A stretch of DNA of 64,000 nt, from contig JAGOBB010000001.1 in NCBI GenBank assembly GCA_017983615.1, positions 496,001 to 560,000 of the forward strand, written 5' to 3'. The translations under genes were made by a program, and so were the position numbers. Source of the stretch: Azonexus sp. GTDB lineage: Bacteria; Pseudomonadota; Gammaproteobacteria; Burkholderiales; Rhodocyclaceae. Shown here piece by piece: positions 847 to 63,448 of this stretch (the stretch's first letter is position 1; the number at the start of each line of letters is the position of its first letter). The notes beneath the pieces were generated by a model. It was not told the DNA's origin. It saw only the letters and a list, made by a program, of their open reading frames with translations, and made no database searches.

Positions 847-886
847 GTTTTTGATTTCGGCCTGTTTTGGCGGCCGACCGTAGGGT
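847..886 (-). repeat. ATGCTACGGTCG element, copy 1 (degenerate core)
   Basis: The core on the minus strand (875-886) matches 10 of 12 positions (ACCCTACGGTCG). It is followed at the standard spacing by CCAAAACAGGCC and GAAATCAAAAAC, so the A/T tract and GGCC block are intact although the core has drifted. Intergenic, between the divergent thrH and binding-protein genes. Confidence 0.6.
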
Positions 887-993
887 TTGTGATCGAACGG
901 TGCCATTGCAGGCGATTTGCATATAGCATGGCGGTCCGTTATGCCTCGCCCGATCTGGCGAAGGCCTGTATTCAGCATTTACTGGGGGTTAAA

Positions 994-2118
994 TTGCGAC
1001 GTTTGAGTTTGTACGTGTTGGGATTCGTCTTCGCACTTGGCGGTGGCAGCGTTCAGGCGGCCGATATCGTTGTCGGACAGGCAGCGCCGCTCAGCGGTAC
1101 GCTGGCCAGCACCGGCAAGGAAATGGTGCTCGGGGCGAAAGTCTACTTCGATTCGGTCAATGCCCAGGGCGGCATCGGCGGCCGGCGCATCAACCATGTC
1201 GTCAAGGATGACGGCTACAAGACCGAAGAAACCGTTCGCCTGACCAGGGAGCTGATCGAGAAGGACAAGGCGGTCGGGCTGATCGGCTATGCCGGCACCG
1301 GCAACATCGCCGAACTGCTCAAGCAGGGCGTGCTGGCCGCCGGCAACGTGCCTTTGGTGGCCCCTTACACCGGCGGCGAGCCGCTGCGCAAACCGTACAA
1401 CCCGTACATCTTCCATATCCGCGCCGGCTATGCCGACGAAGCCGAGCGGATGGTCGAGCAGTTCACCGGCGTGGGGCTGAACCGTGTTGCCGTGTTCTAC
1501 CAGAACGACGCCTTCGGCCTGGCCGGGCTGGCCGGTGTCGAAGCCGCGCTGGCCAAGCGGAACCTGAAACTGGCGGCGCGTGGCAGCTACGAAAAAGGCA
1601 GCGAGGACGTGACCAAGGCCGTCGCCAGCATCAATCAGGGGGCGCCGCAGGCCATCGTGATGATCGCCGTCATGCGACCGGCCGCGGCCTTCGTGCGGGA
1701 ATACCGTCGGCAGGACAACGGGGCGCAAATTTTCAGCATTTCGGTGATCAACGGGCCGGACTTGTTTGCGCTGGCCGGCGGGACTGCCGCCCGCGGGGTC
1801 GGGATCACCCAGGTCGTGCCCTCGCCGGTGCGCGGTACGCAGAAGGTGGTGGTCGAGTATCGCGAGGCGCTGCGCAAATACGCCCCACAGGCCCAGCCCA
1901 GCTACACCAGCTTCGAAGAATACCTGGGCGCCAAGGTGCTGGTTGAAGGGCTGAAGCGGATCAAGGGCGAGATCACCCCCGAGGCGCTGCTCAAGGCGCT
2001 GGAAAACGTCGATACCGATCTCGGCGGCTTCAAGGTGCGCTTTTCGCCTAACAACCGGATTGGTTCGAGTTACATCGACGTGACGCTGCTGCGCGGCGAC
2101 GGGCAGTTGAGCAACTGA
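994..2118 (+). CDS. Periplasmic ABC-transporter substrate-binding protein (branched-chain amino acid type)
   Basis: About 374 residues. A signal peptide (LRRLSLYVLGFVFALGGGS ending at VQA-AD) is followed by DIVVGQAAPLSGTLASTGKE, the standard opening of the LivJ/Peripla_BP_6 family. The two-lobed fold continues with YAGTGNIAELLKQG, FHIRAGYADEAE and FYQNDAFGLAGL. The TTG start at 994 is chosen because GGGGG precedes it and it begins exactly at the signal peptide; an ATG at 889 in the same frame would add a non-signal extension. No permease or ATPase gene is adjacent, so the ligand and partner are unknown. It may serve an unlinked transporter or act as a sensor ligand-binding protein. Confidence 0.8.
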   Translation: MRRLSLYVLGFVFALGGGSVQAADIVVGQAAPLSGTLASTGKEMVLGAKVYFDSVNAQGGIGGRRINHVVKDDGYKTEETVRLTRELIEKDKAVGLIGYAGTGNIAELLKQGVLAAGNVPLVAPYTGGEPLRKPYNPYIFHIRAGYADEAERMVEQFTGVGLNRVAVFYQNDAFGLAGLAGVEAALAKRNLKLAARGSYEKGSEDVTKAVASINQGAPQAIVMIAVMRPAAAFVREYRRQDNGAQIFSISVINGPDLFALAGGTAARGVGITQVVPSPVRGTQKVVVEYREALRKYAPQAQPSYTSFEEYLGAKVLVEGLKRIKGEITPEALLKALENVDTDLGGFKVRFSPNNRIGSSYIDVTLLRGDGQLSN

Positions 2119-2124
2119 TCATTG

Positions 2125-2155
2125 GGCGTCATCCGGCCAGTGGCCGGGTGACGCC
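2125..2155. terminator. Perfect inverted repeat between convergent genes
   Basis: GGCGTCATCCGGCCA pairs with TGGCCGGGTGACGCC across a central G, with one T.G wobble. It lies 7 bases after the binding-protein stop and 10 bases before the yheS stop. The stem is long and GC-rich but has no T-run on either strand, so it may be a bidirectional terminator or an RNA-stabilising hairpin. Confidence 0.5.
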
Positions 2156-2165
2156 ATCGCCGGCT

Positions 2166-4085
<1,920 letters not shown>

Positions 4086-4156
4086 GAGGGGGTGAATTAT
4101 AGCGGCCGGCCCTGTCCGCAGGCGAAAAGGAGGGCCCGTGGAGGGAATCTGGCCAA

Positions 4157-4196
4157 ATGCTACGGTCGGCTCCTAAAAATGGCCAAAATCACAATT
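4157..4196 (+). repeat. ATGCTACGGTCG element, copy 3 (full-length)
   Basis: Exact core followed by GCTCCT, then AAAAAT, GGCC, AAAAT and a further A/T tract (ACAATTTTT). This is the best intergenic example. It sits between yheS and the divergent HD-GYP gene, 98 bases upstream of the latter's ATG. Confidence 0.85.
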
Positions 4197-4265
4197 TTTA
4201 CAAACGTTTACCGACGTTTGTTGGGAAATTGGCTACGCTTCGGAAACGCCTGCTAGAATTCCCGA

Positions 4266-5471
4266 ATGATCAAGCAGATTCGCACCGAACAGCTCAAGCC
4301 GGGCATGTACATCCACGACCTCAATTGTGGCTGGCTGGATCATTCCTTCGTTTCCAACGCCTTTGCCGTGCGCGACCAGGCAACGGTGAACAAGATCGTC
4401 GAACTCGGCATCCGCGAGCTCTACATCGACACCCTCAAGGGCGCTGATGTCTGGGAAGCCCGGCCGCAGTCCGATGTTAATGCCGAGCTCGAAAAGCGCC
4501 TGCAGGAAATCGCCCAGAAGCGGGCAGAAAAGCCGGTCGTCGTTGAGCTGAAGGACGAAGCGGCACGCGCCCGTCGGCTGCATACCGAAGCCAACAAAAT
4601 GGCCCGGCTGGTCCTCGACGACATCCGGCTTGGCCAGAAGATCCAGATCGACCGCGTCGAGCCGCTGGTCGACAACATGGTCGATTCAGTCTTCCGCCAT
4701 CAGGACGCATTGCTGCCGATGGCCCGGCTGAAGAACATCGACGACTACACCTTCGAGCACTCGGTCGGTGTCGCTGCGCTGCTGATCGCCTTTGGCCGCA
4801 CACTCAAACTGCCCAAGGAAGCCATCCGCGAAATCGCCCTCGGCGGCCTGCTCCACGATATCGGCAAGGCCCACGTGCCGGAAAGCATCCTCAATAAGCC
4901 GGGCAAGCTGACCGACGACGAATTCGCCAAAATGCAGTCGCACGTCAATGCCAGCCTGAGTCTGCTGCAGGGCGTGCCGGGCATCAGCGAGGTGACCCGA
5001 CAGGTCGTCGCCGAGCATCATGAACGTATCGACGGCAGCGGTTACCCGAACCGCCTGGCCGGCAAGGCCATCTCGCTGCACGGGCAGATGGCGGCCATCG
5101 TCGATGTTTACGACGCGATCACCTCCGACAAGGTCTACAACCGCGGCATGCCGCCGACCCAGGCGCTGAAGAAGCTGCTCGAATGGAGCAAGCACCACTT
5201 CGACCCGCAACTGGTCCAGACCTTCATCCGCGCCATCGGCATCTACCCGACCGGCACGCTGGTCAGGCTGGAAAGCAACCGCATGGGCGTCGTCGTCGAA
5301 CAGAATGAAGGCAGCCTGCTCGAACCGGTCGTCCGCATTTTTTACCATGCTGGCCAGCAGCACTACATTCCCCCGGAGGTCGTCGATCTTTCCAAGGTGC
5401 AGGACCGTGTCGCCAGTTGCGAGAATTACGACAAATGGAAAATCGACCCCTACCAGTGGCTGCCCTCCTGA
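4266..5471 (+). CDS. DUF3391 / HD-GYP domain cyclic-di-GMP phosphodiesterase
   Basis: A 401-residue cytoplasmic protein. Residues 1 to about 125 form the DUF3391 domain (IRTEQLKPGMYIHDLNCGWL), which commonly precedes HD-GYP. The HD-GYP domain (about 150-345) keeps its key elements: HSVGVAALLIAFG, HD at 197-198 within LLHDIGKAHVPE, EHHERIDGSGYPN with GYP at 259-261, and DVYDAITSDKVY. These supply the metal ligands for hydrolysis of c-di-GMP to GMP, so this copy is predicted active. It begins an apparent operon with a small exported protein and a second, degenerate HD-GYP paralogue. Confidence 0.9.
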   Translation: MIKQIRTEQLKPGMYIHDLNCGWLDHSFVSNAFAVRDQATVNKIVELGIRELYIDTLKGADVWEARPQSDVNAELEKRLQEIAQKRAEKPVVVELKDEAARARRLHTEANKMARLVLDDIRLGQKIQIDRVEPLVDNMVDSVFRHQDALLPMARLKNIDDYTFEHSVGVAALLIAFGRTLKLPKEAIREIALGGLLHDIGKAHVPESILNKPGKLTDDEFAKMQSHVNASLSLLQGVPGISEVTRQVVAEHHERIDGSGYPNRLAGKAISLHGQMAAIVDVYDAITSDKVYNRGMPPTQALKKLLEWSKHHFDPQLVQTFIRAIGIYPTGTLVRLESNRMGVVVEQNEGSLLEPVVRIFYHAGQQHYIPPEVVDLSKVQDRVASCENYDKWKIDPYQWLPS

Positions 5472-6031
5472 GCCTGCTGCTCGCCGTGCCGTTCGCGGCG
5501 CTGGCGGCCGATGCCGGGCAGGATGCCTCGTGGCAGGAGCGCCTGGGCCGGTCCGCGGCGATGCAGGACGAGAGCAAGCGCCTGCAGTCGGCAGCGAGCC
5601 AGCGCCGGGATCAGAAATTCCTCGATTGCGAGCAAAAATTCCTGGTCAATGATTGCCGCGACGAAGCCAGCAAGGAGTATCTGCAGACCACCCGCGAAGC
5701 CCGTCGCCTGGAAATCGATGGCAAATCCATTGAGCGCGCGGTGAAAAAGGAGGAGTTGGAAGCCAACCGTCAGCATCTGGCCGACGAGGCGCCGCGCCGC
5801 GAGGCCGCGCTGCGGGAGCGCGAGGCGGAAACGGCGGCTGCCCGCCAGTCTGCAGCGCAAAAGGCGGAGGCGGCGCGCACCGACAAGGCGCGCCAGGCCG
5901 TCGACGGCGAGCGACGCAAAGCCAGGGAAGCGGAACGCCTGCGCAAGAAGCAGGCCGCACACGATGCCCGGGTGGCCACCCAGAAGCGCGAAGCCGAGCA
6001 ACGCGCCGCCCGGGCCAGGCCAGGAAAATAG
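5435..6031 (+). CDS. Exported coiled-coil protein of unknown function
   Basis: About 198 residues. The ATG at 5435 opens a signal peptide (PVAALLSLLLAVPFAALAAD), overlapping the HD-GYP gene by 37 bases in another frame. The mature part is highly charged, Ala/Arg/Glu/Lys-rich and predicted helical and coiled coil, with two cysteines early (DCEQKFLVNDC) that may form a disulfide. It is probably periplasmic. Its placement between two HD-GYP paralogues suggests translational coupling, but no function can be assigned. The overlap and composition argue for a genuine gene, because the signal peptide would not arise readily as a shadow frame. Confidence 0.65.
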   Translation: MENRPLPVAALLSLLLAVPFAALAADAGQDASWQERLGRSAAMQDESKRLQSAASQRRDQKFLDCEQKFLVNDCRDEASKEYLQTTREARRLEIDGKSIERAVKKEELEANRQHLADEAPRREAALREREAETAAARQSAAQKAEAARTDKARQAVDGERRKAREAERLRKKQAAHDARVATQKREAEQRAARARPGK

Positions 6032-6041
6032 GCTGCCGCCG

Positions 6042-7256
6042 ATGATCCGCAAGCTCGCCATCGACCAGTTGCTGCCCGGCATGTATGTCGTGGACCTGCA
6101 CAAACGCTGGCTCGATCATTCGCTGTGGATCAAGCGCTTCGCCGTGCGCGACGAGGCGCACGTCTGGAAGCTGAAGGAAGAAGGTATCACCGAGGTCAGC
6201 ATCGACACCGACAAGGGCATCGACCTGCCGCCGACACCGATCGCCCGCATCAACGCGGTCGAGCGGCGGATCAAGTCGCTGGCCGACATCAAGGCCGAAG
6301 TGCCGCGCAAGGTCTCGCTCGGTGAAGAGCGGCGGCGCGCTACCCGGCTGCTCGGCGAAGCCAGCGGCACGGTCAGTCTGTTGATGCTCTCCGCCAAGGC
6401 CGGCCAGCACGTCGATGCGGCCCATCTGGAGCCGGTCATCAGCAAGATGATGGAATCGGTGATCCGCAACCCGGATGCCCTGGTGCCCCTGGCCCGTCTC
6501 AAGCGGCAGGAAGCCTACGCCAGCGAACACGCCGTGGCGACGGCCGCGCTGATCATCGCCTTCGGCCGCCAGCAGGGCCTGCCCGAACCGGAAATCGAAA
6601 AGCTGGCGCTCGGCACCATGGTCAAGGACATCGGCCACTCGGCCCTCGATTCCCGCCTGATCACCAAGCCCGGCATGCTCTCCAAGGCCGAGTATTCCAT
6701 CGTCCAGAGCCACGTCGAGGAAGGGCTGGCGGTGCTCGAAGCTACCTCGCGGCTGGCCGAGACGTCGGTCGCCGTCGTCCTCGAACACCACGAACGCTAC
6801 AACGGCTGCGGCTACCCGTACCGCATGGCTGGCGACGAAATCTCGGTGGCCGGCCGCATGGCCGCCATCGTCGACACCTACGACGCGATGACCTCGGCGC
6901 GCCCCTACCGGGCCGCCATGGCGCCATCGCACGCGCTGCGCCAGCTCTACGACGAGAGCGGCACCCAATACGATCCGGCACTGGTCGCCGCCTTCATCAA
7001 GACCGTCGGCATCTACCCGGTCGGCACCCTGGTCCTGCTCGAAAGCGGCCATCTTGCGGTCGTCGAGCAACTCCACCCAGAGAACATGCTGACTCCGGTC
7101 GTCCGCGTCATTTACCACACCGGCCGCCGGCAATACGTCACGGTGCCGGTCGAAGTCGACCTGGCGCGCAAGATCGGCAACCACTACGGGCTGATCGTCC
7201 GCGCCGAAAACTACGAAACCTGGGGCATCAGCCCCCTGCGCTGGCAACCTGCCTGA
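6042..7256 (+). CDS. HD-GYP paralogue with lost HD pair (probable non-catalytic c-di-GMP-related protein)
   Basis: A 404-residue paralogue of the gene at 4266, with DUF3391 (MIRKLAIDQLLPGMYVVDLH) and an HD-GYP-like domain. At the position of the catalytic HD the sequence is VKDIGHSALD: His is replaced by Lys195, and the following conserved Lys is His. The GYP motif survives at 257-259 but its lead-in is YNGCGYP instead of DGSGYP. The missing metal ligand makes phosphodiesterase activity unlikely, so a binding or scaffold role is more plausible. The ATG at 6042 is 10 bases after the previous stop, and the domain begins there. The 3' end overlaps the convergent mutY by 29 bases. Confidence 0.88.
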   Translation: MIRKLAIDQLLPGMYVVDLHKRWLDHSLWIKRFAVRDEAHVWKLKEEGITEVSIDTDKGIDLPPTPIARINAVERRIKSLADIKAEVPRKVSLGEERRRATRLLGEASGTVSLLMLSAKAGQHVDAAHLEPVISKMMESVIRNPDALVPLARLKRQEAYASEHAVATAALIIAFGRQQGLPEPEIEKLALGTMVKDIGHSALDSRLITKPGMLSKAEYSIVQSHVEEGLAVLEATSRLAETSVAVVLEHHERYNGCGYPYRMAGDEISVAGRMAAIVDTYDAMTSARPYRAAMAPSHALRQLYDESGTQYDPALVAAFIKTVGIYPVGTLVLLESGHLAVVEQLHPENMLTPVVRVIYHTGRRQYVTVPVEVDLARKIGNHYGLIVRAENYETWGISPLRWQPA

Positions 7257-8295
7257 TCAGCTTCCGGATCGGCGTCGGCACCCCGGCGTCGGCGGCACGG
7301 CCAATCTCCACCCACTCGAAACCGCTTTCGGCCACACCGGCCTGGTGCGAAACCCGGCACAGCACCGGCTCCAGCGTCAGCCGGAAATGCGTGAAAGCGT
7401 GTTTGAGCGGCGGCAGATTTCGCGTTTCCCCAACCTGCAGGCCTAGCCGGGCAGCCACCGCGGCCGGTTCGCCTTCCGGCGGCACCAGCAGGCCGCCCCA
7501 CAGCCCGGCTGGCGGGCGGCGTTCGAACAACAGGCGCTGGCCGTCGGTGAACAGCACAAAGGTCGCGCTGCGTTCCGGCACCTTGGCCTTTGGCTTGGCC
7601 GTCGGCAATTCGGCCTGCCGGCCATTGCGGCGGGCGATGCAGCCTCCGGCGACCGGGCAATCGGTGCAGCGCGGCCGGCTGCGCGTGCATAAGGTCGCGC
7701 CGAGGTCCATCAGGCCCTGCGTATAGACCTCGATGTCGTTGTCCGGCAGCAGCGACTCGGCCAAGGTCCAAAGGCTACGGTCGATGGCCGTGGAACCGGG
7801 AAAACCATCGACGCCGAAATGGCGGCACAGCACGCGCTTGACGTTGCCGTCGAGAATCGCAGCCCGGCGGCCGAAAGCGAAAGCCGCGATGGCCGCCGCG
7901 GTGGAGCGGCCGATGCCGGGTAGTTCGGCAAGCAACTCCGGCGAATTCGGGAAATTCCCGGCATAGACCGTAGCAATATGCTGCGCGCAGCGATGCAGGT
8001 TGCGCGCCCGGGCGTAATAGCCCAGCCCGGCCCAATGCTCGATCACCACCTCGATCGGCGCCGCCGCCAGCGCCTGCACATCGGGAAAACTGTCCAGAAA
8101 GCGCGCGTAGTAGGGGATCACCGTGCTGACCTGCGTCTGCTGCAGCATGATCTCCGACAGCCAGATGCGATAAGGATCGCGCGTCCTCTGCCAGGGCAGG
8201 TCGTGGCGGCCGGCGACCTTCTGCCATGCAATCAGTTGTTCGGTAAAGGGGGTAGGGGCGGGCAAATTCTGTCTCGACGCAAGCTGCGGGAGCAC
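7228..8295 (-). CDS. mutY: Adenine DNA glycosylase MutY
   Basis: About 355 residues (E. coli MutY is 350). MutY removes adenine mispaired with 8-oxoguanine or G. The helix-hairpin-helix is LPGIGRSTAAAI, followed by the catalytic Asp in AILDGNVKRVL. The substrate-recognition Glu lies in LSEIMLQQTQV. The [4Fe-4S] ligands are CTRSRPRCTDCPVAGGC. The C-terminal NUDIX-like domain (FVLFTDGQRLLFERRPPAGL) that reads 8-oxoG is present. A GTG start at 8295 is preferred (AGAGG about 10 bases upstream); a TTG at 8265 is possible. Two variant copies of the repeated element lie within it. Confidence 0.93.
   Translation of the reverse strand: MLPQLASRQNLPAPTPFTEQLIAWQKVAGRHDLPWQRTRDPYRIWLSEIMLQQTQVSTVIPYYARFLDSFPDVQALAAAPIEVVIEHWAGLGYYARARNLHRCAQHIATVYAGNFPNSPELLAELPGIGRSTAAAIAAFAFGRRAAILDGNVKRVLCRHFGVDGFPGSTAIDRSLWTLAESLLPDNDIEVYTQGLMDLGATLCTRSRPRCTDCPVAGGCIARRNGRQAELPTAKPKAKVPERSATFVLFTDGQRLLFERRPPAGLWGGLLVPPEGEPAAVAARLGLQVGETRNLPPLKHAFTHFRLTLEPVLCRVSHQAGVAESGFEWVEIGRAADAGVPTPIRKLIRQVASAGG
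7772..7783 (+). repeat. ATGCTACGGTCG element, copy 4 (11/12 core)
   Basis: AGGCTACGGTCG inside mutY, antisense to it (codes DRSL). No A/T tract follows. It lies 182 bases from copy 5 in opposite orientation. Confidence 0.6.
7965..7976 (-). repeat. ATGCTACGGTCG element, copy 5 (10/12 core)
   Basis: On the minus strand TTGCTACGGTCT inside mutY in the sense direction, coding IATVYAG. It shares the extended word CTACGGTCTATGCCG with copy 7. Confidence 0.5.
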
Positions 8296-8337
8296 GGATA
8301 ATACGGCCTCTTTTCTTCCCGGCCTACGCCCGCCCCG

Positions 8338-8838: not shown

Positions 8839-8880
8839 ACCGGCCGCCGTCTGCGCTTAGAATGCAGCCTTTCGCCCAGA

Positions 8881-8954
8881 GCGGGCGTCGTATAATGGTA
8901 ATACCCTAGCTTCCCAAGCTAGAGCCGTGGGTTCGATTCCCATCGCCCGCTCCA
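8881..8954 (+). tRNA. tRNA-Gly (CCC anticodon)
   Basis: A complete cloverleaf. The acceptor stem GCGGGCG pairs with CGCCCGC, and the CCA is encoded. The anticodon stem CTAGC/GCTAG encloses loop TTCCCAA, giving anticodon CCC, which reads GGG. The T arm is GTGGG-TTCGATT-CCCAT. Confidence 0.95.
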
Positions 8955-8987
8955 ACAGAACTCCGGAAATCTTCAGTATTTCCAGCC

Positions 8988-9018
8988 AAAAAGGCCAACC
9001 ACATCGGTTGGCCTTTTT
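8988..9018 (+). terminator. Intrinsic terminator after tRNA-Gly
   Basis: AAAAAGGCCAACC pairs with GGTTGGCCTTTTT across a short ACATC loop. The 8-bp GC-containing stem with A and T tails fits a strong rho-independent terminator for the tRNA transcript. Confidence 0.88.
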
Positions 9019-9272
9019 GCTGTTTGCTCGCTCTCTGCGCGCCTCAGCCTGTCGCATTTGTAGTGCTAAAGACTTATGACTTTAGTATTGATACAAGTGT
9101 ATTAATTTGCCCGAATTACATATAAAGTGCGTGGCGGAGATGCTGGCTGGTTCTCGCGGCTGACTGTTTTTGCAGTTCGTTGCCTGGACCGTTTGCATAC
9201 AAAAAAATTAAATAAACCGGGCTGTTGGCAGGTGTTTCTTGCCATACAAGCTACCAAACCAGAGGGTGCAGC
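9019..9272. other. Intergenic region upstream of the chemoreceptor
   Basis: AT-richer stretch containing a small palindrome (CTAAAG at 9066, CTTTAG at 9080). No convincing sigma-70 or sigma-28 promoter stands out, and no gene is visible. Confidence 0.3.
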
Positions 9273-22152: not shown

Positions 22153-23178
22153 ATGTCCCTGCATTTTCCCCACGCCCATCCGCCGGCCGCCGGCGAACTG
22201 ACCGAAGTGGCGCCCGGCGTCTTCTGGCTGCGCATGCCGCTGCCGTTCCAGCTCGATCACATCAATCTCTGGCTGCTCCGGGACGGCGCCGGATGGACCA
22301 TAGTCGATACCGGTTTTGCCGACGAAGCAGTGCGCGAAAGCTGGTCTACGATTATCGACCGGCTCGACGGCCCGGTGACGCGCCTGATCGTCACGCACTT
22401 TCACCCCGACCATCTTGGCCTGGCGACTTGGCTGATGGAAAAGACCGGTGCGCCGCTGGTCATGACGACCGGCGAATTTCTGACTGCCCACGCAGTCTGG
22501 CAGGAGGTGGGAGGGCACGGCGCACGCTTCATGGTCGAACAATTCCGCCAGCACGGGCTGGATCAGGCGCGGCTGGACAAGTTCGCCGCCCGCGGTTCGG
22601 GCTATCGCAAGGCGGTGCCGGCCCTGCCCGAGCACTACCAGCGCCTGAAGGCCGGGGACAATGCTACGGTCGATGGCAAAAAATGGCAGATTTTGATCGG
22701 CCACGGCCACTCGCCCGAACACATGGCGCTTTACTGCGCCGAACTCGGCGTGTTAATTTCGGGCGACATGCTTTTGCCGAGAATTTCCACCAATATCAGC
22801 GTTTTTGCAGCGACGCCCGAGGCAGACGCGCTGCGCTGGTATCTGGATTCGCTGGACGACATGGCGCGGGAATTGCCGGAATCGACACTCGTGTTGCCCT
22901 CGCACGGGTTGCCCTTCACGGGTGTGCAGGAGAGGGTCCAGGCTTTGCAGACGCATCACGAAGAGCGTCTGCAGGTGCTGGAAAGTAGCTGTGAACAAGC
23001 GCCACAGAGCGCAGCCGGGTTGCTCGATGTACTTTTCAATCGGGCGCTCGATACACACCAAACCATGTTCGCGATGGGCGAGGCGATTGCCCATCTGAAC
23101 TATCTAGAAAAAGCTGGTCGGCTATCGCGCAACCGGGGCGCCGACGGTGTGATTCGCTATTCGCGGTTGAAGCAATAA
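22153..23178 (+). CDS. MBL-fold metallohydrolase
   Basis: 341 residues. The metal motif THFHPDHLGLA, then GHGHSPEHMALY, LISGDMLLP and LPSHGLPF give the full glyoxalase II-like ligand set. The C-terminal 60 residues are helical (LLDVLFNRALDTHQTMFAMG). The large helical insert (FMVEQFRQHGLDQARLDKF) resembles the thioesterase-type hydrolases found near fatty-acid or polyhydroxyalkanoate genes, and phaC follows 31 bases downstream on the same strand. A role in PHA or acyl-CoA metabolism is inference. Contains an exact repeat copy coding NATVDGKK. Confidence 0.87.
   Translation: MSLHFPHAHPPAAGELTEVAPGVFWLRMPLPFQLDHINLWLLRDGAGWTIVDTGFADEAVRESWSTIIDRLDGPVTRLIVTHFHPDHLGLATWLMEKTGAPLVMTTGEFLTAHAVWQEVGGHGARFMVEQFRQHGLDQARLDKFAARGSGYRKAVPALPEHYQRLKAGDNATVDGKKWQILIGHGHSPEHMALYCAELGVLISGDMLLPRISTNISVFAATPEADALRWYLDSLDDMARELPESTLVLPSHGLPFTGVQERVQALQTHHEERLQVLESSCEQAPQSAAGLLDVLFNRALDTHQTMFAMGEAIAHLNYLEKAGRLSRNRGADGVIRYSRLKQ
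22661..22700 (+). repeat. ATGCTACGGTCG element, copy 9 (full-length)
   Basis: Exact core inside the MBL-fold gene, in the sense direction, followed by ATGGC, AAAAAAT, GGC, AGATTTTG. Codes NATVDGKKWQIL. Confidence 0.82.
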
Positions 23179-54152: not shown

Positions 54153-54246
54153 GATCATTTCCTCCGGGGATGGCTGCCGATTATAGGCAGCCATCCGGCA
54201 GACACTTTCTTACAGATCAAAAATGCGGCGATACGGCGCGAATGCG

Positions 54247-55134: not shown

Positions 55135-55137
55135 CGG
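55098..55137 (+). repeat. ATGCTACGGTCG element, copy 14 (11/12 core, full tracts)
   Basis: ATGCTACGGTCA followed by GTGCC, AAAAAA, GAGGC, AATTTT. Antisense to btuF, coding LTVAFAIG inside the signal peptide. Confidence 0.75.
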
Positions 55138-56123
55138 GCAGTCCAGACGGACAGGGCATCGGTCAGCCGTTGCCAGCCGGTTTCGTGGCCGGGCAGGCCG
55201 AAGCGCAGCAGTGGCTGCTGGTCGAAGCGTCGGGTCAGGATTCCGCGGTGGGCGAGGAACTCGTGCAGTTCGCCGGCTTGCGGTGTGGTCAGCGTGGAGA
55301 ACAGCGCCGTCGCCTTGACTTCGCCAAGCTGCGCCAGCAAGGAGTGCAGACGTCCGCTGGCGGTGAGCAGGCGCTTTCGGGCGGCGGCTTGCCAATCGGT
55401 GTCGAGCAGGGCCAGCCGGGCCGCTTCGCGCGCCGGGCCGCTGATCGTCCACAGGCCCATCGCGGCCTCCATCCGGGTGAGGATGTCCGGGGCGGCGAAA
55501 ACGAAGCCGACGCGGGCGCCCGGCAGGCCGAAGAACTTGCCCAGCGAGCGCAGCACAATCAGATTGGGCGCCGCCTCGGTGCCTGCCAGGGGGGTCAGGC
55601 TCTCTTCCGGCGTTGGGTCGATGCAGGCTTCGTCCACAATCAGCCAGCCCCCCCGCTTTTTAAGCTGCCGGGCCGCATCGACCGCGATGTCGTACGGATG
55701 GTGGTCGCCGGTCGGATTGTTCGGGTTGCACAGCAGGACGTAAGGCGTCGCTACCGCCAGCGCACGCGGCAGTGTGGCGTTCTGCAGGAAGCGCAGCTTG
55801 TGACCGGCGCGCTGCCAGGCCTGCGGGTGCGCGCTGTAGATTGGCGAAATGCAGGCGACGACGGCGCGTGGCAGCAACGTCGGCAGCCAGTGGATGGCGG
55901 CTTGGGCGCCAGCCACTGCCAGCAGGTTGGCGTTGCCGTAGTACGCCGCCGCTGCGGCTTCCAGTCCGTCGCCGGCTTCCGGCAAGCGTTGCCAGGCAGT
56001 TTGCGGCAGCGCTGGGACCGGCCACGGCTCGGGGTTGAAGCAGGTGGACAGGTCCAGCCAGTCGGTTAGCGGAATGTTGTATTGAGTCGCCGCGTTGTGA
56101 AGACTGCTGCCGTGTTCGGCCAT
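55131..56123 (-). CDS. cobD: Threonine-phosphate decarboxylase CobD (CobC-type aminotransferase fold)
   Basis: 330 residues of the class I/II PLP aminotransferase fold. The Schiff-base Lys is in [19 protein letters not shown]; the PLP-binding blocks include [16 protein letters not shown] and [17 protein letters not shown]. The AAAAYYG and FNPEPWP opening match CobD, which makes (R)-1-amino-2-propanol phosphate for the nucleotide loop. The start is ATG at 56123; a longer frame to 56504 runs antisense to the cobQ leader and is not supported. Confidence 0.88.
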
Positions 56124-56229
56124 ACGGATTTCCAGGGAATGGGGGCGGTTGACGGATCGCCCGATGCTATGCGAGCCGCTGGGTGGAGGCAAGTGCGATA
56201 ATCGCGCACTTTTTCGACGGTCGATTGCC

Positions 56230-57705
56230 ATGTCCTGTAAGTCGCTGATGGTCCAGGGAACCACGTCCGATGCCGGCAAGACGACGCTGGTCGCAGCGTT
56301 GTGCCGTATCCTGAAGCGCCGTGGCGTTTGCGTCGCGCCGTTCAAGCCGCAGAACATGGCACTCAATTCGGCGGTCACTGTCGATGGCGGCGAGATCGGC
56401 CGCGCCCAAGCGCTGCAGGCGCTGGCCGCCGGCGTGCCGGCGCATAGCGATTTCAATCCGGTGCTGTTGAAGCCGACCACCGACATGACGGCCCAGATCA
56501 TCATCCACGGCCAGGTGGCGATGGATCTCGACGCCCGTGACTACCACGCCTACAAGCCGCGCGCGATGGGCGCCGTGCTCGAATCCTGGGCGCGCTTGAC
56601 GGCTGCCTACGACTGCGTCGTCGTCGAAGGCGCCGGGTCGCCGGCCGAGATCAACCTGCGCGACCGCGACATCGCCAACATGGGCTTCGCCGAGGCTGTC
56701 GACTGCCCGGTGATCCTGATCGCCGATATCGACCGTGGCGGCGTCTTTGCCCATCTGGTCGGCACGCTGGAACTGCTCTCGCCATCCGAGCAAAACCGCG
56801 TCAAGGGCTTTGTGATCAACCGCTTTCGCGGCGACATCGGCCTGCTCGAACCCGGCCTCGACTGGCTGGAACAACGCACCGGAAAGCCGGTGCTCGGCGT
56901 TTTGCCCTATCTGCACGGCTTGATGCTCGATGCCGAGGATGCGATCGCAAATGCTACGGTCGAGGGTAAAAAAAGGCCAAAACTGAAAATCGTCGCGCCG
57001 GTTTATCCGCGCATTTCCAATCACAACGACCTCGATCCGCTGCGCCTGCATCCGGACGTCGATTTCCGCTGGATCGGACCGGGCGAGGCGCCGCCGGCGG
57101 CCGACCTGATCGTCCTGCCCGGCTCCAAGGCGGTGCGCGCTGACCTCGACTGGCTGCGGGAACAAGGCTGGGCGACGGCCATTCACAAGCACCTACGCTA
57201 CGGCGGCAAGGTGATCGGCCTATGCGGCGGCTACCAGATGCTGGGGCGGACGATCGCCGATCCGCTCGGCCTGGAAGGCCGGCCGGGCTCAACGCCGGGG
57301 CTGGGCGTGCTGGACGTCGATACGACGCTGGAAGCTGCCAAGCAGTTGCGGAATGTGAGCGGTCACTTGTCGCTTGTTGGCCGGCCAGCCATGACTGGCT
57401 ATGAAATCCACCTTGGGGTCACGAGCGGCGAAGGTCTGGCGCGGGGTGCCGTTGAACTGGCCGATGGCCGTCGCGACGGGGCGATTTCAGCCGACGATCA
57501 GGTGTTCGCCACTTACTGTCATGGCCTCTTCGATCACCCCGAAGCCTTGACCGCGCTGCTCGCCTGGGCCGGCATCAGCGAAAGCGCGCCAGTCGATTTT
57601 GCCGCCCGCCGCGAAGCCGATCTAGAGCGCCTGGCCGATGCGGTCGAGGCGGCGCTGGACTGGCAGAAAATGGCGGTCCTTTTGCCCGGTCAGGCCTCGG
57701 TCTGA
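56230..57705 (+). CDS. cobQ: Cobyric acid synthase CobQ
   Basis: 491 residues. P-loop-like [20 protein letters not shown] and [33 protein letters not shown] and the amidotransferase domain with [12 protein letters not shown] (catalytic Cys) and [15 protein letters not shown] (His). It amidates adenosyl-cobyrinic acid a,c-diamide at four positions. ATG at 56230; an earlier in-frame ATG is not supported by the family start. Contains an exact repeat copy in the linker, coding [12 protein letters not shown]. Divergent from cobD. Confidence 0.94.
56951..56990 (+). repeat. ATGCTACGGTCG element, copy 15 (full-length)
   Basis: Exact core in cobQ, sense direction, followed by AGGGT, AAAAAAA, GGCC, AAAAC, TGAAAATC. 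Confidence 0.84.
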
Positions 57706-59051
57706 GTCTTCTCGGCCTCAATCTGGTGGATACGCTTGAGCGCCACCTGCTTCTGAATTTCGCGGAAATCCTTCTCCCGACCATACAGGGCATATTGCGT
57801 GCGAAGCGCACCAAAGACCTTTTTCGCATCGCTGCCACCCATCATGATTTCAGCGTGGCGGTCAGCCAGTTCGTGGTCACCGATCGAGAGTGCAGCGCGC
57901 AGGACGTCGATGCGCGTCGTGGGTTCGAGGTCGGTTTCAAGCAGGGCAGGGCGCAAGCCGACGAAGCGGGCCTTGCCACGTTCCGGTGAGCAGATGGCCA
58001 GCAGCGCGGCGAATCCGGCCTGCTCGTCCAGCGTCATAGCCTGCACCTCGGCATCGCGCATGGTGACCAGGACCTTCTCGCCGGAGATCTTGTCGTTGGC
58101 GTCGACATGGCTGCGTGCCATGGCCAGTCTGTCCTTCGCCGCAATGGCGCCAGGCATGGTGTCGTTGGCAATGACGTCGGCCAATGCAGCGCGGGCGGTT
58201 TCGGCGTCGCCGTTCAGGGTTGCGGCCTCGGCCAGCAAGCGCTTGCGCAGGTAGTTGCGCGGAGTTTTCTTGGCGATTTCGTCGAGAATCTGCTGCGCTT
58301 CGGCGTGTTCGCCCAGGGCCATGCAGATATTGGCCTTCAGATCTGCAGCATCGAAAAAATGGGGGGTGGATGCGACCACCCGGTCGATTTCCTGGCGCGC
58401 CTCGGTCAGCCGGTTCTGCCGATGCAGGGAACGGGCGACGCCGGCTCGTGCCCAAGGAAATTCGTAGTCTTCCAGAATGCTCCGGTAAGCCGTTTCCGCG
58501 GCCTTGGCGTCGCCGTTGCGCAGCAGCACTTCGGCCTGCTGGCGCATGATCTCGAAGCGGTAGGGGCGGCCGGCTTCGCTTTGGCGCTGGGCTTCGAGAA
58601 TATCCAGGGCATTGGCGAATTCCTGCTTCCGCTTTTCCCGATAGTAAGCGGCGAAGAAATTTTTCTTGGCGACGATGCGGTCGAGTCGCATGACCAGTTT
58701 GTCAGGTGAAAACGGCTTGATGATGTAGTCGTCGGGCACCAGTTCGACGGCCGAGACCACCTGCTCGTAGGACTGCTCGCCGGTGACCATCATGAAAATG
58801 GTTTCATCGGGCAGCAGGTTGAAGCGGCGCAGTTCTTCCAGTAACTGCTGGCCGGACCGCCCGTCGCCCAGCATGTAGTCGCAGAGGATGATGTCCGGCG
58901 CATTGTTGCGGATGCGGTAGATCGCATCCTGATAATTGGAGCCGAACTCGACCGCGAAGGCGCCGATGGTCTGGGCAACGGTGCGCAGCGCATCGCGCGC
59001 CTGCGGCTGGTCGTCGACGACGAGAAAACGCTTTTTGCTGTAGTTGCTCAT
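57690..59051 (-). CDS. Response regulator with TPR-like C-terminal repeats
   Basis: 453 residues. Receiver domain about 1-130: [10 protein letters not shown], phospho-Asp in [21 protein letters not shown] and IIKPFSPDK. The remaining 320 residues are helical repeats of TPR type ([40 protein letters not shown]), a protein-binding output without DNA-binding or enzymatic domain. Encoded with a histidine kinase by a 1-base overlap, and lying between cobQ and cobU. Overlaps the convergent cobQ end by 16 bases. Confidence 0.88.
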
Positions 59052-59659
59052 TACGGCAGCCGGAGTTCGAAACGGGCGCCGCCCAGACTGGCATCGTTGC
59101 TCAGATGCAGGCTACCTTCGCGTCCCTTGCGAACATGCAGCGCGGCCAGGCGATGGGCGACCATCAGGCCGGTCCCGTAGGGCGGGGGGAGGCTTGGGAA
59201 GCCAGGGCCGTCGTCCTCGATGCGGATGAGCAACCAGCCATCCTCGACATCGGCCTGCAGATGGACCTTGCCTTGCGCATAGCGTCCGGCATTCTGGATG
59301 GCGTTGTTCAGCATGTCGGCGACCAGGTCGCGGTCGAGCAGCCATTCGTCGATTACCTGGCAATCCATGCTCAGGGTGATGTTGGCGAGCGCCAGATGGC
59401 GCTGCTGGGCCATGACCACCTCGTCGCACAGATCGCCGACGATGACCGGCGTGACGGCGGGCGCCGCGTCCTTGCGCAGGACCTGGTAAGCGGCCAGCGT
59501 CCGCGACAGGCGGTTGGCGGCTGATTCGATGGCGTAGCGCGCTTCGCCCATGGCAATGCCGTGCTCGGCCTCAAGGGCGGCAATCACCGATTCGGCGACG
59601 AAAAGTTGGTTCTTTGCGTCGTGCACGCCCGACGCCAGAATGTCCAGCAAATGATGCAT
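59051..59659 (-). CDS. Small histidine kinase-like protein
   Basis: About 202 residues. A helical dimerisation segment with a candidate phospho-His in ASGVHDAKNQLFVAESVIAA is followed by an HATPase_c domain: VADMLNNAIQNAGRYAQGKV (N box), IRIEDDGPGFPS (G1) and YGTGLMVAHRLAALH (G2). It has no sensor or membrane domain, so it is a minimal soluble kinase, probably controlled by a partner. ATG at 59659 has GGGAACGGG upstream. Its stop (TAATG) overlaps the response-regulator ATG. Confidence 0.85.
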   Translation of the reverse strand: MHHLLDILASGVHDAKNQLFVAESVIAALEAEHGIAMGEARYAIESAANRLSRTLAAYQVLRKDAAPAVTPVIVGDLCDEVVMAQQRHLALANITLSMDCQVIDEWLLDRDLVADMLNNAIQNAGRYAQGKVHLQADVEDGWLLIRIEDDGPGFPSLPPPYGTGLMVAHRLAALHVRKGREGSLHLSNDASLGGARFELRLP

Positions 59660-59711
59660 GTCCCGTTCCCCTCCAATGACATCTGTTGTGTCTTCAGTGG
59701 CAAGCATACCG

Positions 59712-59748
59712 CTGTTTGGCGGGAAACAGACAGCCCGATGCTATCGGG
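59712..59748. other. Two small hairpins between cobU and the histidine kinase gene
   Basis: CTGTTT-GGCGGG-AAACAG (59712-59729) and CCCGAT-GCT-ATCGGG (59734-59748, reaching the cobU stop codon). No T-run follows, so these could be weak terminators after cobU or simple chance structure. Confidence 0.4.
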
Positions 59749-60307
59749 AGGGAGGTGCGCAGCCCTTGAGTGCGAGCGGTAGCCCGGCGGCAACCAGCGT
59801 TACCTGCTCGCACACCGCGGCGACGCGCTGGTTCAGTCGGCCCTGCTCATCGGCAAACAGGCGCGAGACCGGGTGCATCGGCACGATGCCCCAGCCGACT
59901 TCGTTGGAAACCAGGATGGCTCGGCCGGGTAGTGTCGGCAGCGTGTCGACTAGCGCTGCCGTCTCGTCACGCAGCAACGGGCAGGCGATGGCGTTGCCGG
60001 CCTCGGCCTGTTGTGCGGCCTGGCCGGCGAAGAGCAGGTTCGACAGCCAGAGCGTCAGGCAATCGACCAGAATGCAAGTGTCCGGCGCCGCCAGTTCGTG
60101 CAGTCGGTCGGCCAGGTGCAGTGTTTCGACCACACAGCCCCAGTCAGCCGGGCGGCGTTCGCGATGATGGGCGATGCGCCGGGCCATCTCGTCATCACAA
60201 GCTTCGGCTGTGGCGACGTAGATGACCCGCAGGCCGGAATCGCGGGCGCGGCGCTCGGCCAACAGGCTTTTGCCCGAACGTGCGCCGCCGATGATCAGTT
60301 CGTTCAT
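59741..60307 (-). CDS. cobU: Adenosylcobinamide kinase / phosphate guanylyltransferase CobU
   Basis: 188 residues. P-loop [56 protein letters not shown] and [20 protein letters not shown] with [11 protein letters not shown] match CobU/CobP. Phosphorylates and then guanylylates adenosylcobinamide. ATG at 60307; one at 60316 is possible. Divergent from the riboswitch-controlled cobT. Confidence 0.93.
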
Positions 60308-60347
60308 GGCCGCCATTCTGGGTGAAGGCAGGCGGGCCGGCAACCGC

Positions 60348-60353
60348 TATAAT
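60348..60353 (+). promoter_or_regulatory. Candidate -10 element upstream of the cobalamin riboswitch
   Basis: TATAAT at 60348-60353, a perfect -10, lies just upstream of the riboswitch. The -35 region (GAAGGC-type) is poor, so an activator or extended -10 may be needed. Confidence 0.55.
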
Positions 60354-60361
60354 TTTCGCTT

Positions 60362-60503
60362 CGACAATACGGAACCCGGTGCGAATCCGGGGCGGGCCCG
60401 CCGCTGTAACCGGGGACCGATGCCGCAACAGCCACTGCCAACGGGAAACAGACCGGGCGGGAAGGCGCGGCAAAGGGACGATCCGAAAGCCAGAAGACGT
60501 GTC
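60362..60503 (+). promoter_or_regulatory. Adenosylcobalamin riboswitch upstream of cobT-cobS
   Basis: Conserved cobalamin riboswitch blocks in order: GGAACCCGGTGCGAATCCGG, CCGCTGTAACCGGGGACC, GCCACTG, ACGGGAAACAG, GGCGGGAAGG, and CCGAAAGCCAGAAGAC. It ends about 90 bases before the cobT ATG and should repress cobT (and co-transcribed cobS) when AdoCbl is abundant. Confidence 0.92.
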
Positions 60504-60591
60504 GGGAAAATCATGGAAGCCTGTGGACAGGGCTTCGCGGCAGCGTTCGGAAAGACGCCGCCGCGAGGCCCTTTTGCTTTTGGAGAATCGG

Positions 60592-61641
60592 ATGCATTCG
60601 TTTGAAATTTCAGCCCCGGATCGTGGCCTGGAAAACGCCCTGAGAAACAAGGTCGACCGCAAGACCAAACCGCTCGGTGCGCTCGGTCAGCTTGAACGTC
60701 TCGCGGTACAGATCGGCTTGATCCAGCAGTCGCTGACGCCGCAACTGAACAGCCCGCAGATACTGGTTTTCGCCGGCGACCACGGCGCGGCCAAGGCCGG
60801 CGTCTCGGCCTATCCGCAGGAAGTGACCTGGCAGATGGTCGAGAATTTCCTGGCCGGCGGTGCGGCGATCAATGTCTTCGCGCGCCAGAACTGCCTCGGC
60901 TTGTCGGTAGTTGACGCCGGCGTGGCGCACGATTTTGGCGACGAGCGTGAAGGGCTGATCGACCTGAAAATCGCCCCGGGGACGGCCAACTACCTCGAAC
61001 AGCCGGCCATGAGCGTTGCCCAGTGTGCCCAGGCCATCGAACAGGGCGCCGGCGTCGTCCTCGGGCTGGCGGTGGCTGGCTGCAATGTCGTCGCCTTTGG
61101 CGAAATGGGAATCGGCAACACCGCTTCAGCCTCGCTGGTCACCCATTGCCTGACCGGCACGCCACTGGCCGAGTGCGTCGGTCGCGGCACCGGGCTGGAC
61201 GTTGCCGGACTGGCTCGCAAGGAGGCGCTGCTGACGCAGGCGCTGGCGCGCTATCGGGGTGCGGGTGGCGACGACGATGCTTTCAAGGTGCTCGCCGAGT
61301 TCGGCGGCTTCGAGATCGCGACCATGGTTGGTGCCATGCTGGCGGCGGCCGAGGCGAAGATGGTCCTGCTCATCGACGGCTTCATCGTCGGCGCTGCAGC
61401 GCTGGTCGCCAGCCGGATGGCGCCGGAGCTGCTTGACTACTGCGTCTTCTGCCATCGCTCGGCCGAAGCCGGCCATGCCGCCCAGTTGCGGGCGATGCAG
61501 GCCGAGCCGCTGCTCGATCTCGGCCTGCGTCTGGGCGAAGGAACCGGCGCTGCGCTGGCCTACCCGTTGCTCCAGGCCGCGGTTAATTTCCTGAACGAGA
61601 TGGCCAGCTTCGAATCGGCAGGCGTCTCCGACAAGACATGA
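60592..61641 (+). CDS. cobT: Nicotinate-nucleotide--dimethylbenzimidazole phosphoribosyltransferase CobT
   Basis: 349 residues. [63 protein letters not shown] and GRGTGLD are diagnostic; the catalytic Glu lies in the C-terminal [13 protein letters not shown]. Activates the lower ligand base as alpha-ribazole phosphate. The ATG at 60592 is preceded by TGGAGAATCGG. Longer upstream reading would run through the riboswitch and is rejected. A 4-base overlap couples it to cobS. Confidence 0.95.
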
Positions 61642-62396
61642 TCCGTCGCGAAATGGAATATTTCTTCGGTGCCGTCCGTTTCTTCACGCGCCTCCCCGTG
61701 CCGGCCTGGGTCGGCCACTCGGCCGAGGCACTGAACCGCTCGGCCCGATACTTTCCGGCAGTCGGTCTGCTGGTCGGCGGCATCGGCGCCCTGGTCTATC
61801 TGGCTGCCCTGAAATTGTGGCCGCAGCAGGTGGCCGTGCTGCTGTCGATGGCGGCGACCATCTACGCCACCGGCGCTTTCCATGAAGACGGCTTGGCCGA
61901 CACCGTTGACGGCCTCGGCGGCGGTTGGGACAGGCTGCGCATTCTGGAAATCATGAAAGATTCGCGGGTCGGCAGCTACGGCGTGGTGGCGACGGTGCTG
62001 GCGCTGCTCGGCAAGTTCGTGCTGCTCTCGGCACTTGATGCAGCCCTGGTCCCGTGGGCGTTGATCGCCGGCCACGCACTGTCCCGTTTCTGCTCGACGG
62101 TGCTGCTGGCGACCATGGATTATGTCCGCGAAGATTTGCTGGCCAAGGCTAAACCGCTGGCGACGCGCCTGACCGCGGGCGAAATGCTGGTCGCGCTGGC
62201 TTTCGTGCTTGCCGGGTTGGCGCTCCTGCCCATGCACAACGCCGTCGCCGGCTGCGCCATGGCCATCCTCGCCACCCTCTGGCTGGCCGCCAAATTCAGG
62301 CGCTGGCTCGGCGGCTACACCGGCGACTGCCTCGGGGCGACGCAGCAGCTTAGCGAAATTGCCTTCTACCTCGGCCTGCTTGCCCAATGGATTTAG
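61638..62396 (+). CDS. cobS: Adenosylcobinamide-GDP ribazoletransferase CobS
   Basis: 252 residues, integral membrane. [56 protein letters not shown] and [11 protein letters not shown] are the standard CobS features, with the Asp-rich [10 protein letters not shown] binding metal. Joins alpha-ribazole to adenosylcobinamide-GDP, the last step to cobalamin. Confidence 0.95.
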
Positions 62397-62581
62397 CCGG
62401 CCAGCCCAGGCAATGCGATTTCGAATTGGTAAATTTATTGATAAGTGTCATTTAATTAGTCATCTGGTAAAAATTACAATTGGCTGCGGATTTGTGAGCG
62501 AGGGGCTGAGCGGCGACGGGACAAGCAAGTTCGCGATCAGGCCTGGATGATGACTTTGCCAAGACTGGCGACGGAGGCAGC
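62397..62581. promoter_or_regulatory. Intergenic region with weak FNR-like site
   Basis: An AT-rich island (62425-62485) holds TTGATAAGTGTCAT, matching the FNR consensus at 8 of 10 positions, about 137 bases before the next ATG. It may place the downstream small gene under O2 control, but this is weak. Nothing else is seen. Confidence 0.3.
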
Positions 62582-62794
62582 ATGACGGAAGCGACAAAAT
62601 TGGAAGCCTCTGGCAGCGATAGCTTTGAGAGGCGCAGACGGCCGATCGGCCGCTTGTTGTTCTGGCTGCGGAGCCTGGTCATTCAGGAGGTGCCGGGTAA
62701 CATGGCACATTGCGAATTTGGCTGCCGGCAAGGCGAATGTGGTCGGGAACAGTGGGAAAGCTGCGGGAACCGCATTGATGCGGCGCGGCGCTAG
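62582..62794 (+). CDS. Small cysteine-rich protein, conserved hypothetical type
   Basis: 70 residues. After a basic segment (FERRRRPIGRLLFWLRSLVI), VIQEVPGNMAHCEFGCRQGE and CGREQWESCGNRI contain four cysteines in C-x3-C and C-x6-C spacing, matching small proteins I recall in other proteobacteria with CEFDCR-like cores. A strong GGAGG lies 4 bases before the ATG at 62582, supporting translation. Function unknown; a metal- or Fe-S-binding role is possible. It sits alone between cobS and cobC. Confidence 0.65.
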   Translation: MTEATKLEASGSDSFERRRRPIGRLLFWLRSLVIQEVPGNMAHCEFGCRQGECGREQWESCGNRIDAARR

Positions 62795-62917
62795 CTCGAC
62801 GTACCCAGCCAAATAGGGGCGATTTCCAGCGAGACGCGTTGGTCGCCTCGGGGGAAAGCGCTGGGGGATTGGTCGTATGATGGCGGTCGCGCTCGCCCGG
62901 AATTCTGTCCTGCCCTC

Positions 62918-63448
62918 ATGATCCTGCACCTGATCCGTCATCCCGAACCCGTAATCAAACCGGGCATTTGCTACGGTCGGCTCGATATTTTGGCCAAAAA
63001 TGCAGAAGCGGCTGCAGAGCGCTTGCGGGCTGAACTGCCGCCGGATCTCCCGGTCTGGAGCAGTCCGCTGCGCCGATGTCGGGAACTAGCAGAACTGCTG
63101 CACCCGGCACCAAGGTTCGACCAGCGTCTGGCCGAAATGGATTTTGGCCTGTGGGAAGGCCGACCGTGGGATTCGATACCGCGCACCGAACTGGATGCCT
63201 GGGCTGCTGACATCGCCGGCTACACCCCGCCGGGCGGCGAGTCGCCGCGGGATGTCCAGCGCCGCGTGCTTGATTTTATCAACGAACTGGCGGTGCCGCA
63301 GGCCGTGCTGGTGACGCACGCCGGGGTGATCCGGCTGCTCCTGGCGGCCCATCACGATCTGCCAGTTGAACGGTGGCTGGAGCAGTCGGTTGCCTACGCT
63401 GCCCGCCTCGTGCTCGATCTTGGTCGCCCCGGAAGCGGCGACGTATAA
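62918..63448 (+). CDS. cobC: Alpha-ribazole phosphatase CobC (histidine phosphatase family)
   Basis: 176 residues. Phosphoglycerate-mutase-like fold with the phospho-His motif LIRHPEP near residue 6, WSSPLRRCRELAELL, AEMDFGLWEGRPWDSI (catalytic Glu) and VLVTHAGVIRLLLA (second His). Typical CobC features are the GICYGRLDI segment and length near 180. It removes the phosphate from alpha-ribazole phosphate or adenosylcobalamin 5'-phosphate. Contains a repeat copy near its start. Confidence 0.87.
   Translation: MILHLIRHPEPVIKPGICYGRLDILAKNAEAAAERLRAELPPDLPVWSSPLRRCRELAELLHPAPRFDQRLAEMDFGLWEGRPWDSIPRTELDAWAADIAGYTPPGGESPRDVQRRVLDFINELAVPQAVLVTHAGVIRLLLAAHHDLPVERWLEQSVAYAARLVLDLGRPGSGDV
62968..63007 (+). 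repeat. ATGCTACGGTCG element, copy 16 (11/12 core, full tracts)
   Basis: TTGCTACGGTCG in cobC, sense direction, coding ICYGRL, followed by GCTCG, ATATTTT, GGCC, AAAAATG. Confidence 0.75.

Follow-up and report, generated by a model that had tools for sequence, protein, structure and literature searches.

A dispersed 40-bp element with the plan of a DNA uptake signal in the genus Azonexus/Dechloromonas

A repeated element of about 40 bp was found in a 64,000-nucleotide stretch of an Azonexus sp. genome (contig JAGOBB010000001.1, positions 496,001 to 560,000; hereafter the window). The genome containing the window (G000; 2.92 Mb, 34 contigs) is an incomplete draft, 85.66% complete. On the basis of sequence comparison, this element is very probably the DNA uptake signal of Azonexus/Dechloromonas, a third such signal with an independent core and a plan like that of the uptake signal sequence (USS) of Pasteurellaceae. 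The reading is supported because nearly every testable genomic hallmark of an uptake signal is present: genome-wide excess, equal strands, extra-even spacing, intergenic preference, copies made mostly by substitution, dialects and competence genes. We infer from these hallmarks that the element acts in DNA uptake.

Structure of the element

Element anatomy, position matrix, gene context and spacing were analyzed in 464 kb of G000, which served both to build the matrix and as the sequence scanned with it. The element is asymmetric and reads AATGCTACGGTCRgcc, then A6, GGCC, AAAAT and AAA. The consensus of 68 exact copies is r-A-ATGCTACGGTCG-gccc-n-AAAAAA-n-GGCC-AAAAT-C-n-AAA. Counted from the first base of the core (0-11), the A6 tract lies at 17-22, GGCC at 24-27, AAAAT at 28-32 and a third tract at 35-38; conservation is low outside about -2 to +38, and the A-runs are mainly on the motif strand. 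The first two tracts are centred 19.5 and 30 nt from the core start, 10.5 nt or about one helical turn apart, and the third is at about 36. The first-pass annotation had described a core followed by an A/T tract, GGCC and AAAAT, and had compared it with the Pasteurellaceae plan of a core and two A/T tracts about one turn apart. Both descriptions are correct, and the plan is sharper than was described, with the third tract in addition.

The matrix scan gave 97 sites above 14 bits, including 68 with the exact core, 24 with one mismatch, four with two and one with three. Against simulated sequence the counts were 95 versus 0 at 16 bits, and 97 versus 1 at 12 bits. Among the 24 one-mismatch sites, 19 differed at the last base (16 A, 3 T), four at the first and one at the fifth. 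Mismatches are thus concentrated at the last base, so the core is better written ATGCTACGGTCR. A scan with the tracts only revealed, above 18 bits, just 14 sites with one to six core mismatches, nine of them at the last position alone; its class with 10-11 core mismatches probably represents the same elements in shifted register. The copies of the element are very strictly kept.

Copies in the window

The window has nine exact matches of ATGCTACGGTCG, five with one mismatch and five with two. These 19 matches compare with a mean of 5.5 and a largest value of 12 in 100 dinucleotide shuffles. With the matrix, 14 window sites scored above 14 bits and 11 above 35 bits. All 16 places listed earlier (nine exact, five one-mismatch, two two-mismatch) were found again, and further two-mismatch matches are at 2288, 11912 and 63161. 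Good tracts had been claimed for 12 of the 16 copies, which is close to the 11 sites above 35 bits. Among the 16, the copies with cores at 7772 and 7965 score below 14 bits, and tracts are weak or missing at 3106, 18268 and 35881, which score 14-22 bits. The copies are given below. Genes, here and in the following, are predictions of a simple hexamer model made for this analysis, and G029 is the metagenome-assembled genome AG28 of the same genus. Both the genus and AG28 were recognised by a scan with the ParA-like protein encoded next to the minor-pilin operon.

848..887, minus strand: core ACCCTACGGTCG (2 mismatches), good A/T tracts, intergenic; 39.5 bits; present in G029, the sole relative aligned across it
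3105..3144, plus strand: exact core, no real A/T tracts, within predicted gene 2166-4085; 14.2 bits
4156..4195, plus strand: exact core, between divergent predicted genes; 56.7 bits
7771..7810, plus strand: one-mismatch core without tracts, in predicted gene, weak; below 14 bits
7938..7977, minus strand: two-mismatch core without clear tracts, in predicted gene, weak; below 14 bits
13127..13166, minus strand: exact core, intergenic; 62.8 bits
18241..18280, minus strand: one-mismatch core, partial tracts, in predicted gene; 18.3 bits
19269..19308, plus strand: exact core, in predicted gene; 46.1 bits; conserved in G029, the sole relative aligned across it
22660..22699, plus strand: exact core, in predicted gene; 43.0 bits
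25447..25486, minus strand: exact core, intergenic; 44.0 bits
31262..31301, minus strand: exact core, in predicted gene; 45.2 bits
35880..35919, plus strand: core ATGCTACGGTCA, partial tracts, in a 30-bp gap between predicted genes; 22.4 bits
40315..40354, minus strand: exact core, in predicted gene; 39.8 bits
55097..55136, plus strand: core ATGCTACGGTCA, spans the start of a predicted gene; 41.4 bits
56950..56989, plus strand: exact core, in predicted gene; 54.2 bits
62967..63006, plus strand: core TTGCTACGGTCG, in a stretch without predicted gene; 35.6 bits

The match at 63161-63172 has a two-mismatch core, ATCCCACGGTCG, with ...GGCCAAAATC near the usual place; it scored below 14 bits and resembles the CCCACGGTC dialect of relatives. 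The window also contains a cobalamin riboswitch (60303-60520). The predicted proteins near it resemble what we take to be cobalamin biosynthesis proteins.

Abundance and spacing

The whole G000 genome has 391 exact copies of ATGCTACGGTCG and none of the control, which in all word and pattern counts is the pattern read backwards. The genome-wide count, which the first-pass annotation had proposed as a check, is therefore far from random. Chance origin of the repeat was rejected by the backward, shuffled and simulated controls. At least one site was present in each segment of three G000 stretches scanned.

Although intergenic DNA makes up 11.5% of the 464 kb, 46 of the 97 sites are intergenic, an enrichment of about four-fold, and they occupy 46 different gaps, one per gap. 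The coefficient of variation of the spacing is 0.66, versus 0.97 for random placement and 1.03 when the gene or intergenic class of each site was kept; none of 5,000 simulations of either kind gave so even a spacing.

Dialects and distribution

Apart from G000, only G029 (209 copies) has many exact copies of the 12-mer among 59 congeners searched; three more have 19-26 and the others at most seven. Unbiased word counts and alignments revealed related forms in other congeners, and the following dialects were distinguished.

G000 and G029: AATGCTACGGTCGGC
G052: TGCTACGGTCAACCGG
G002: TGCCACGGTCAAC
G034, G030 and Dechloromonas denitrificans ATCC BAA-841: GCGGTCGAC types
Azonexus fungiphilus DSM 23841: ACGGTCGAC types
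G101: CACGGTCGAC

It means that ATGCTACGGTCG as universal core was too narrow, as it misses most dialect copies outside G000 and G029. Absence from related genomes, which had been named as a finding that would speak against the element, is true of the exact 12-mer only; the relatives carry dialect forms. No dialect signal was found in 80-120 kb each of G018, G048 and A. hydrophilus DSM 23864, and the named 20-kb loci had too few copies for typing dialects.

Common to the dialects are CGGTC-R-R-C and an A/T tract 23-26 nt after the first base. An earlier genus-wide pattern with two tracts at fixed distance under-counted dialects (G101, D. denitrificans) and was replaced by CGGTCRRC-N15-WWWW, which was derived from nine genomes and applied to 76 genus genomes and 399 of the order, mostly unseen. 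This shared pattern was at least 7-fold over control in 43 of the 76 genus genomes (306-1,821 copies; controls 20-84), 3- to 7-fold in eight and less than 3-fold in 25. Type strains are among the carriers. Examples are given below with control counts in brackets, under presumptive strain names assigned by matching forward, reverse and control counts.

Azonexus sp. R2A61: 1,821 (33)
A. fungiphilus DSM 23841: 1,411 (22)
A. hydrophilus ZS02: 1,267 (27)
D. denitrificans ATCC BAA-841: 1,040 (44)
D. hortensis: 1,035 (57)
A. hydrophilus DSM 23864: only 127 (35)

The 399 order-wide genomes were drawn evenly and included six of the genus; among the 393 outside it the maximum was 102 copies, in a 7.8-Mb genome with a control of 55. 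In seven genomes from other genera of the same family the pattern was near control level. In the samples searched, the shared pattern is genus-wide and genus-limited.

A quick tree was made from four linked proteins with 36 rows: 17 motif-rich (more than 4.5-fold over control), 11 poor (at most 3-fold), two intermediate and six outside the genus, which were not counted. The intermediate row L194 is the deepest of the genus and is followed by motif-rich branches; seven of the poor rows fall into a single clade. At least five changes are required. An origin near the base of the genus with several losses is the likely history.

Some further repeats were observed in these genomes. In G101 (stretches L164-L175) a perfectly palindromic core, CGGTCGACCG, occurs 35 times in 240 kb, and many of these copies are flanked by A/T tracts on either side, as though a pair of opposed signals had one core in common. 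Two other repeats of G101, around GAGAGGCGGAGAGGCGG and AGCAGATTCAACCGGGACAAC, have about 13-15 copies each in stretches L164-L169 and L170-L175. In relatives inverted pairs occur singly, with two opposed cores about 40 bp apart and the tract region in common; core pairs in opposite orientations are in L046 (G002:C1:71-3092) and at G058:C48:37156-37207. Two contigs filed as viral, L273 and L274, have one element each; they may be prophage, flanking host DNA or misfiled host DNA. Words around CCTGCTCG and CGAGCAGG exceed expectation several-fold, in genomes lacking the element as well (the stretches involved include those of G018, G029 and D. denitrificans). They may reflect codon usage (Leu-Leu-Asp/Glu) or a different motif that is perhaps polar.

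Even spacing and dialects also bear on the possibility that the element is the site of a chromosome-organising protein (nucleoid-associated, condensin-loading or domain-forming), for which even spacing would serve compaction. One site per gap, the long asymmetric motif, the phased A-tracts and the lack of polarity would fit such a site, and a passage of PMC1939737 reports that Karlin and colleagues once explained the even spacing of known uptake signals by a role of this kind. However, 25 of the 76 genus genomes are below 3-fold over control, the dialect differs between species at the same sites, and regulatory protein sites usually have a far looser consensus, an argument made for USS in part of PMC1626085. 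Motif-poor genomes, dialect changes and strict consensus are all expected for an uptake signal, and we regard a chromosome-organising site as improbable.

Gene context

Among the 68 exact copies, 37 have the core between genes, 29 are wholly within a gene and two straddle a gene end. Same-strand exact copies in genes were mostly in one reading frame, (x)AT-GCT-ACG-GTC-G (14 of 16). Between genes, there were 11 exact copies in 7.2 kb of convergent gaps, 20 in 31.0 kb of tandem gaps and six in 12.9 kb of divergent gaps. The highest density between convergent genes, together with the palindromic core of G101, would suit a transcription terminator or RNA element at gene ends, but the copies inside genes and between divergent genes do not. 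No pair of the 97 sites is closer than 150 bp, so there is no paired hairpin in G000. A terminator is very unlikely.

Orthologous sites and origin of the copies

Eight copies in the first 20 kb of the window were compared with ten congeners; copies are named here by their core position. The intergenic site 4157 is occupied in all seven motif-rich relatives aligned (G029, G056, G003, G002, G052, G055, G053), six of which carry a different dialect. In the motif-poor G048 the A/T tracts and GGCC are kept and the core is broken (GGATCAACCGG), and no recognisable core was seen at this site in motif-poor G018. At the intergenic site 13154 a dialect form is present in G052, G002, G056, G055 and G003, while G029 retains the tracts there with a core changed in its upstream half. 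Within genes, ten relatives align gap-free at copy 3106 and lack it; in G029 this place is taken by a full element that points the other way. At copy 18268 nine of ten relatives align gap-free and G048 has one gap. No clean 40-bp empty site was found at the eight places compared (875 and 19270 against G029 only). The copies were made mostly by substitution in place, and the element does not behave like an inserted repeat.

The motif-poor G048 also has one well-formed element, near 9112 on the reverse strand of L103. Over 286 bp its 3' flank shares 92-94% identity with the flanks of the G053, G055 and G002 elements. The element is probably a relic, which agrees with losses of the motif in the genus.

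A dispersed insertion element, such as a miniature inverted-repeat transposable element or a repetitive extragenic palindrome (REP)-like repeat, would explain many near-identical copies and the gaps in some ortholog alignments. The gap-free alignments at 3106 and 18268, the other dialects in place at intergenic sites, and the lack of conservation in the flanks beyond 40 bp speak against it, and its probability is very small indeed.

Orientation

The exact 12-mer occurs 195 times on the forward and 196 times on the reverse strand of G000, and the shared pattern 20,831 and 20,821 times over the 43 motif-rich genomes. The first-pass annotation had named strand polarity as a test, and there is no bias. 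No relation of orientation to local GC skew was visible in 24 segments of G000. FtsK-orienting polar sequences (KOPS) and Chi sites are over-represented short words with strand polarity. The element shares with them a fixed word in genome-wide excess, but a polar motif of KOPS or Chi type is excluded by the equal strands, and together with the presence of sites in every segment scanned and the lack of a visible link to skew this leaves the whole class of polar replication or segregation motifs and terminus-region sites (matS) with a negligible probability.

Competence genes and candidate receptors

Of the competence genes proposed for checking, those for ComEC, ComEA and a minor-pilin operon are present, and DprA is present too. 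ComEC was found in all ten genomes tested. ComEA and DprA are near-universal in the genus, passing their cut-offs in 67 and 73 of 76 genomes, respectively. The G029 minor-pilin operon lies next to rpsT. One of its pilins scores 38.9 bits against PF16732 (ComP_DUS), for which the cut-off is 27.3; its other products are a GspH/FimT-like pilin, PilW, PilY1 and two proteins without a Pfam match in the PilV and PilX positions. The start of the same operon is at a contig end in G000. The nearest PDB sequences of the ComP-family pilin are pilins such as PilA and PilE, and none of 18 matches is named ComP. With G029 queries the minor-pilin operon beside rpsT/parA was recognised in part of the named loci; in the others it is elsewhere or too diverged.

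Comparison with known uptake signals

Hallmarks of USS and of the DNA uptake sequence (DUS) of Neisseriaceae are, in the relevant parts of PMC1626085 and PMC1939737, no orientation bias, a spacing somewhat more even than chance, preference for intergenic DNA, a very strong consensus and origin by point mutation. In USS, according to a passage of PMC1626085, A/T segments lie 3' of the core, and the Hin type has two with centres about 12 nt apart. The element is like USS in its asymmetric core with 3' A/T segments about one turn apart (USS extend to about 32 nt overall), the absence of strand bias, regular spacing, intergenic preference, origin by point mutation and dialects (for USS, by subclade). 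GCGGT in the dialects of G034, G030 and D. denitrificans includes the USS inner core GCGG. In contrast, the core here continues CGGTCR(A/G)C and is otherwise unlike, the G000 dialect has three tracts where USS has two, and the element belongs to a betaproteobacterial lineage and is less dense.

Several dialects in one clade and ComP-family minor pilins in the genome are shared with DUS. However, DUS are described without flanking A/T segments in the corresponding part of PMC1626085, and the element has tracts. The DUS inner core CTG, as given in a passage of PMC12616744, is absent from the G000 core, though the D. denitrificans form has a CTG on the upstream side of its CGG.

Known cores were searched in the 464 kb of G000. 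The Hin USS core AAGTGCGGT had no copy and the Apl core ACAAGCGGT three (3.4 expected each), and DUS GCCGTCTGAA had none, with only 1.1 expected. The USS and DUS cores were thus tested and not found, so the element is no member of the USS or DUS families, and the earlier statement that its core is unlike the Haemophilus and Neisseria signals is correct. A 2025 paper states, in its part on this subject, that only two families are known to discriminate at the DNA uptake step (PMC12616744). In the open-licence literature on uptake sequences or competence in Azonexus, Dechloromonas, Rhodocyclaceae, Rhodocyclales and betaproteobacteria we found no report of the element, judged by title; the 12-mer itself turned up, by chance, in papers on other subjects.

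Points against an uptake signal

Several observations weigh against the element being an uptake signal. The density in G000 is about 0.2 per kb (97 sites in 464 kb), versus roughly one per kb for USS and DUS, and close inverted pairs below 150 bp are lacking among the 97 sites, while some USS and DUS are paired; both properties of the known signals are given in a passage of PMC1626085. Beyond the last position there are nearly no decayed cores, which is stricter than a simple drive model might predict. Alignment gaps occur at the weak coding copies 7965 (three of nine relatives) and 7772 (four of nine), and some alignments at the intergenic sites 4157 and 13154 are also gapped. A ComP_DUS-family pilin is encoded in 53 of 60 genomes, G000 included, whether the motif is present or not. 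Motif-poor congeners have the same competence genes as motif-rich ones, so these genes are not discriminating; they make uptake possible and do not prove it. Minor pilins are highly variable between species, and no receptor is tied to motif presence or dialect. No report of competence in Azonexus or Dechloromonas surfaced in the open-licence literature, which was incompletely checked.

Proposed mechanism

If the element is an uptake signal, a minor pilin of the type IV pilus on the cell surface would bind the core. The downstream A-tracts might bend or loosen the helix and in this way let the DNA be kinked and pulled through the secretin; a kinking role of A/T tracts is proposed for USS in parts of PMC12616744 and PMC7811141. 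ComEA, ComEC, DprA and RecA would then complete transformation. Motif-bearing DNA would be taken up and recombined preferentially, and by this molecular drive the motif would accumulate where the genome tolerates it. A shift of receptor preference would be followed by the genomic motif and give rise to dialects, and in lineages which cease transformation or lose the bias the motif would decay.

We speculate, with good though not full confidence, that self-DNA recognition in natural transformation arose here for a third time, independently, and by convergence reached the plan of Pasteurellaceae (C-G-G-T core, phased A-tracts downstream). It would then have split into dialects and been repeatedly lost within the genus, and in G101 two opposed signals would have a single palindromic core in common.

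Significance

Many genomes of this genus carry hundreds to well over a thousand tags resembling the self-DNA signals of Haemophilus and Neisseria, and it would be the third such system if uptake is confirmed. This third lineage would consist of environmental bacteria with cultured type strains, in which it could be asked whether such systems arise repeatedly. CGGT with phased A-tracts might be a mechanical solution to which evolution returns. Further questions raised by the element are how a receptor and hundreds of genomic sites can switch dialect in concert, and which of the pilins recognises the DNA. Dialects, intermediate genomes and apparent losses within one genus provide a comparative series for them. 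Genetic work in Azonexus and Dechloromonas could become easier with element-tagged DNA, should the bacteria turn out to be competent.

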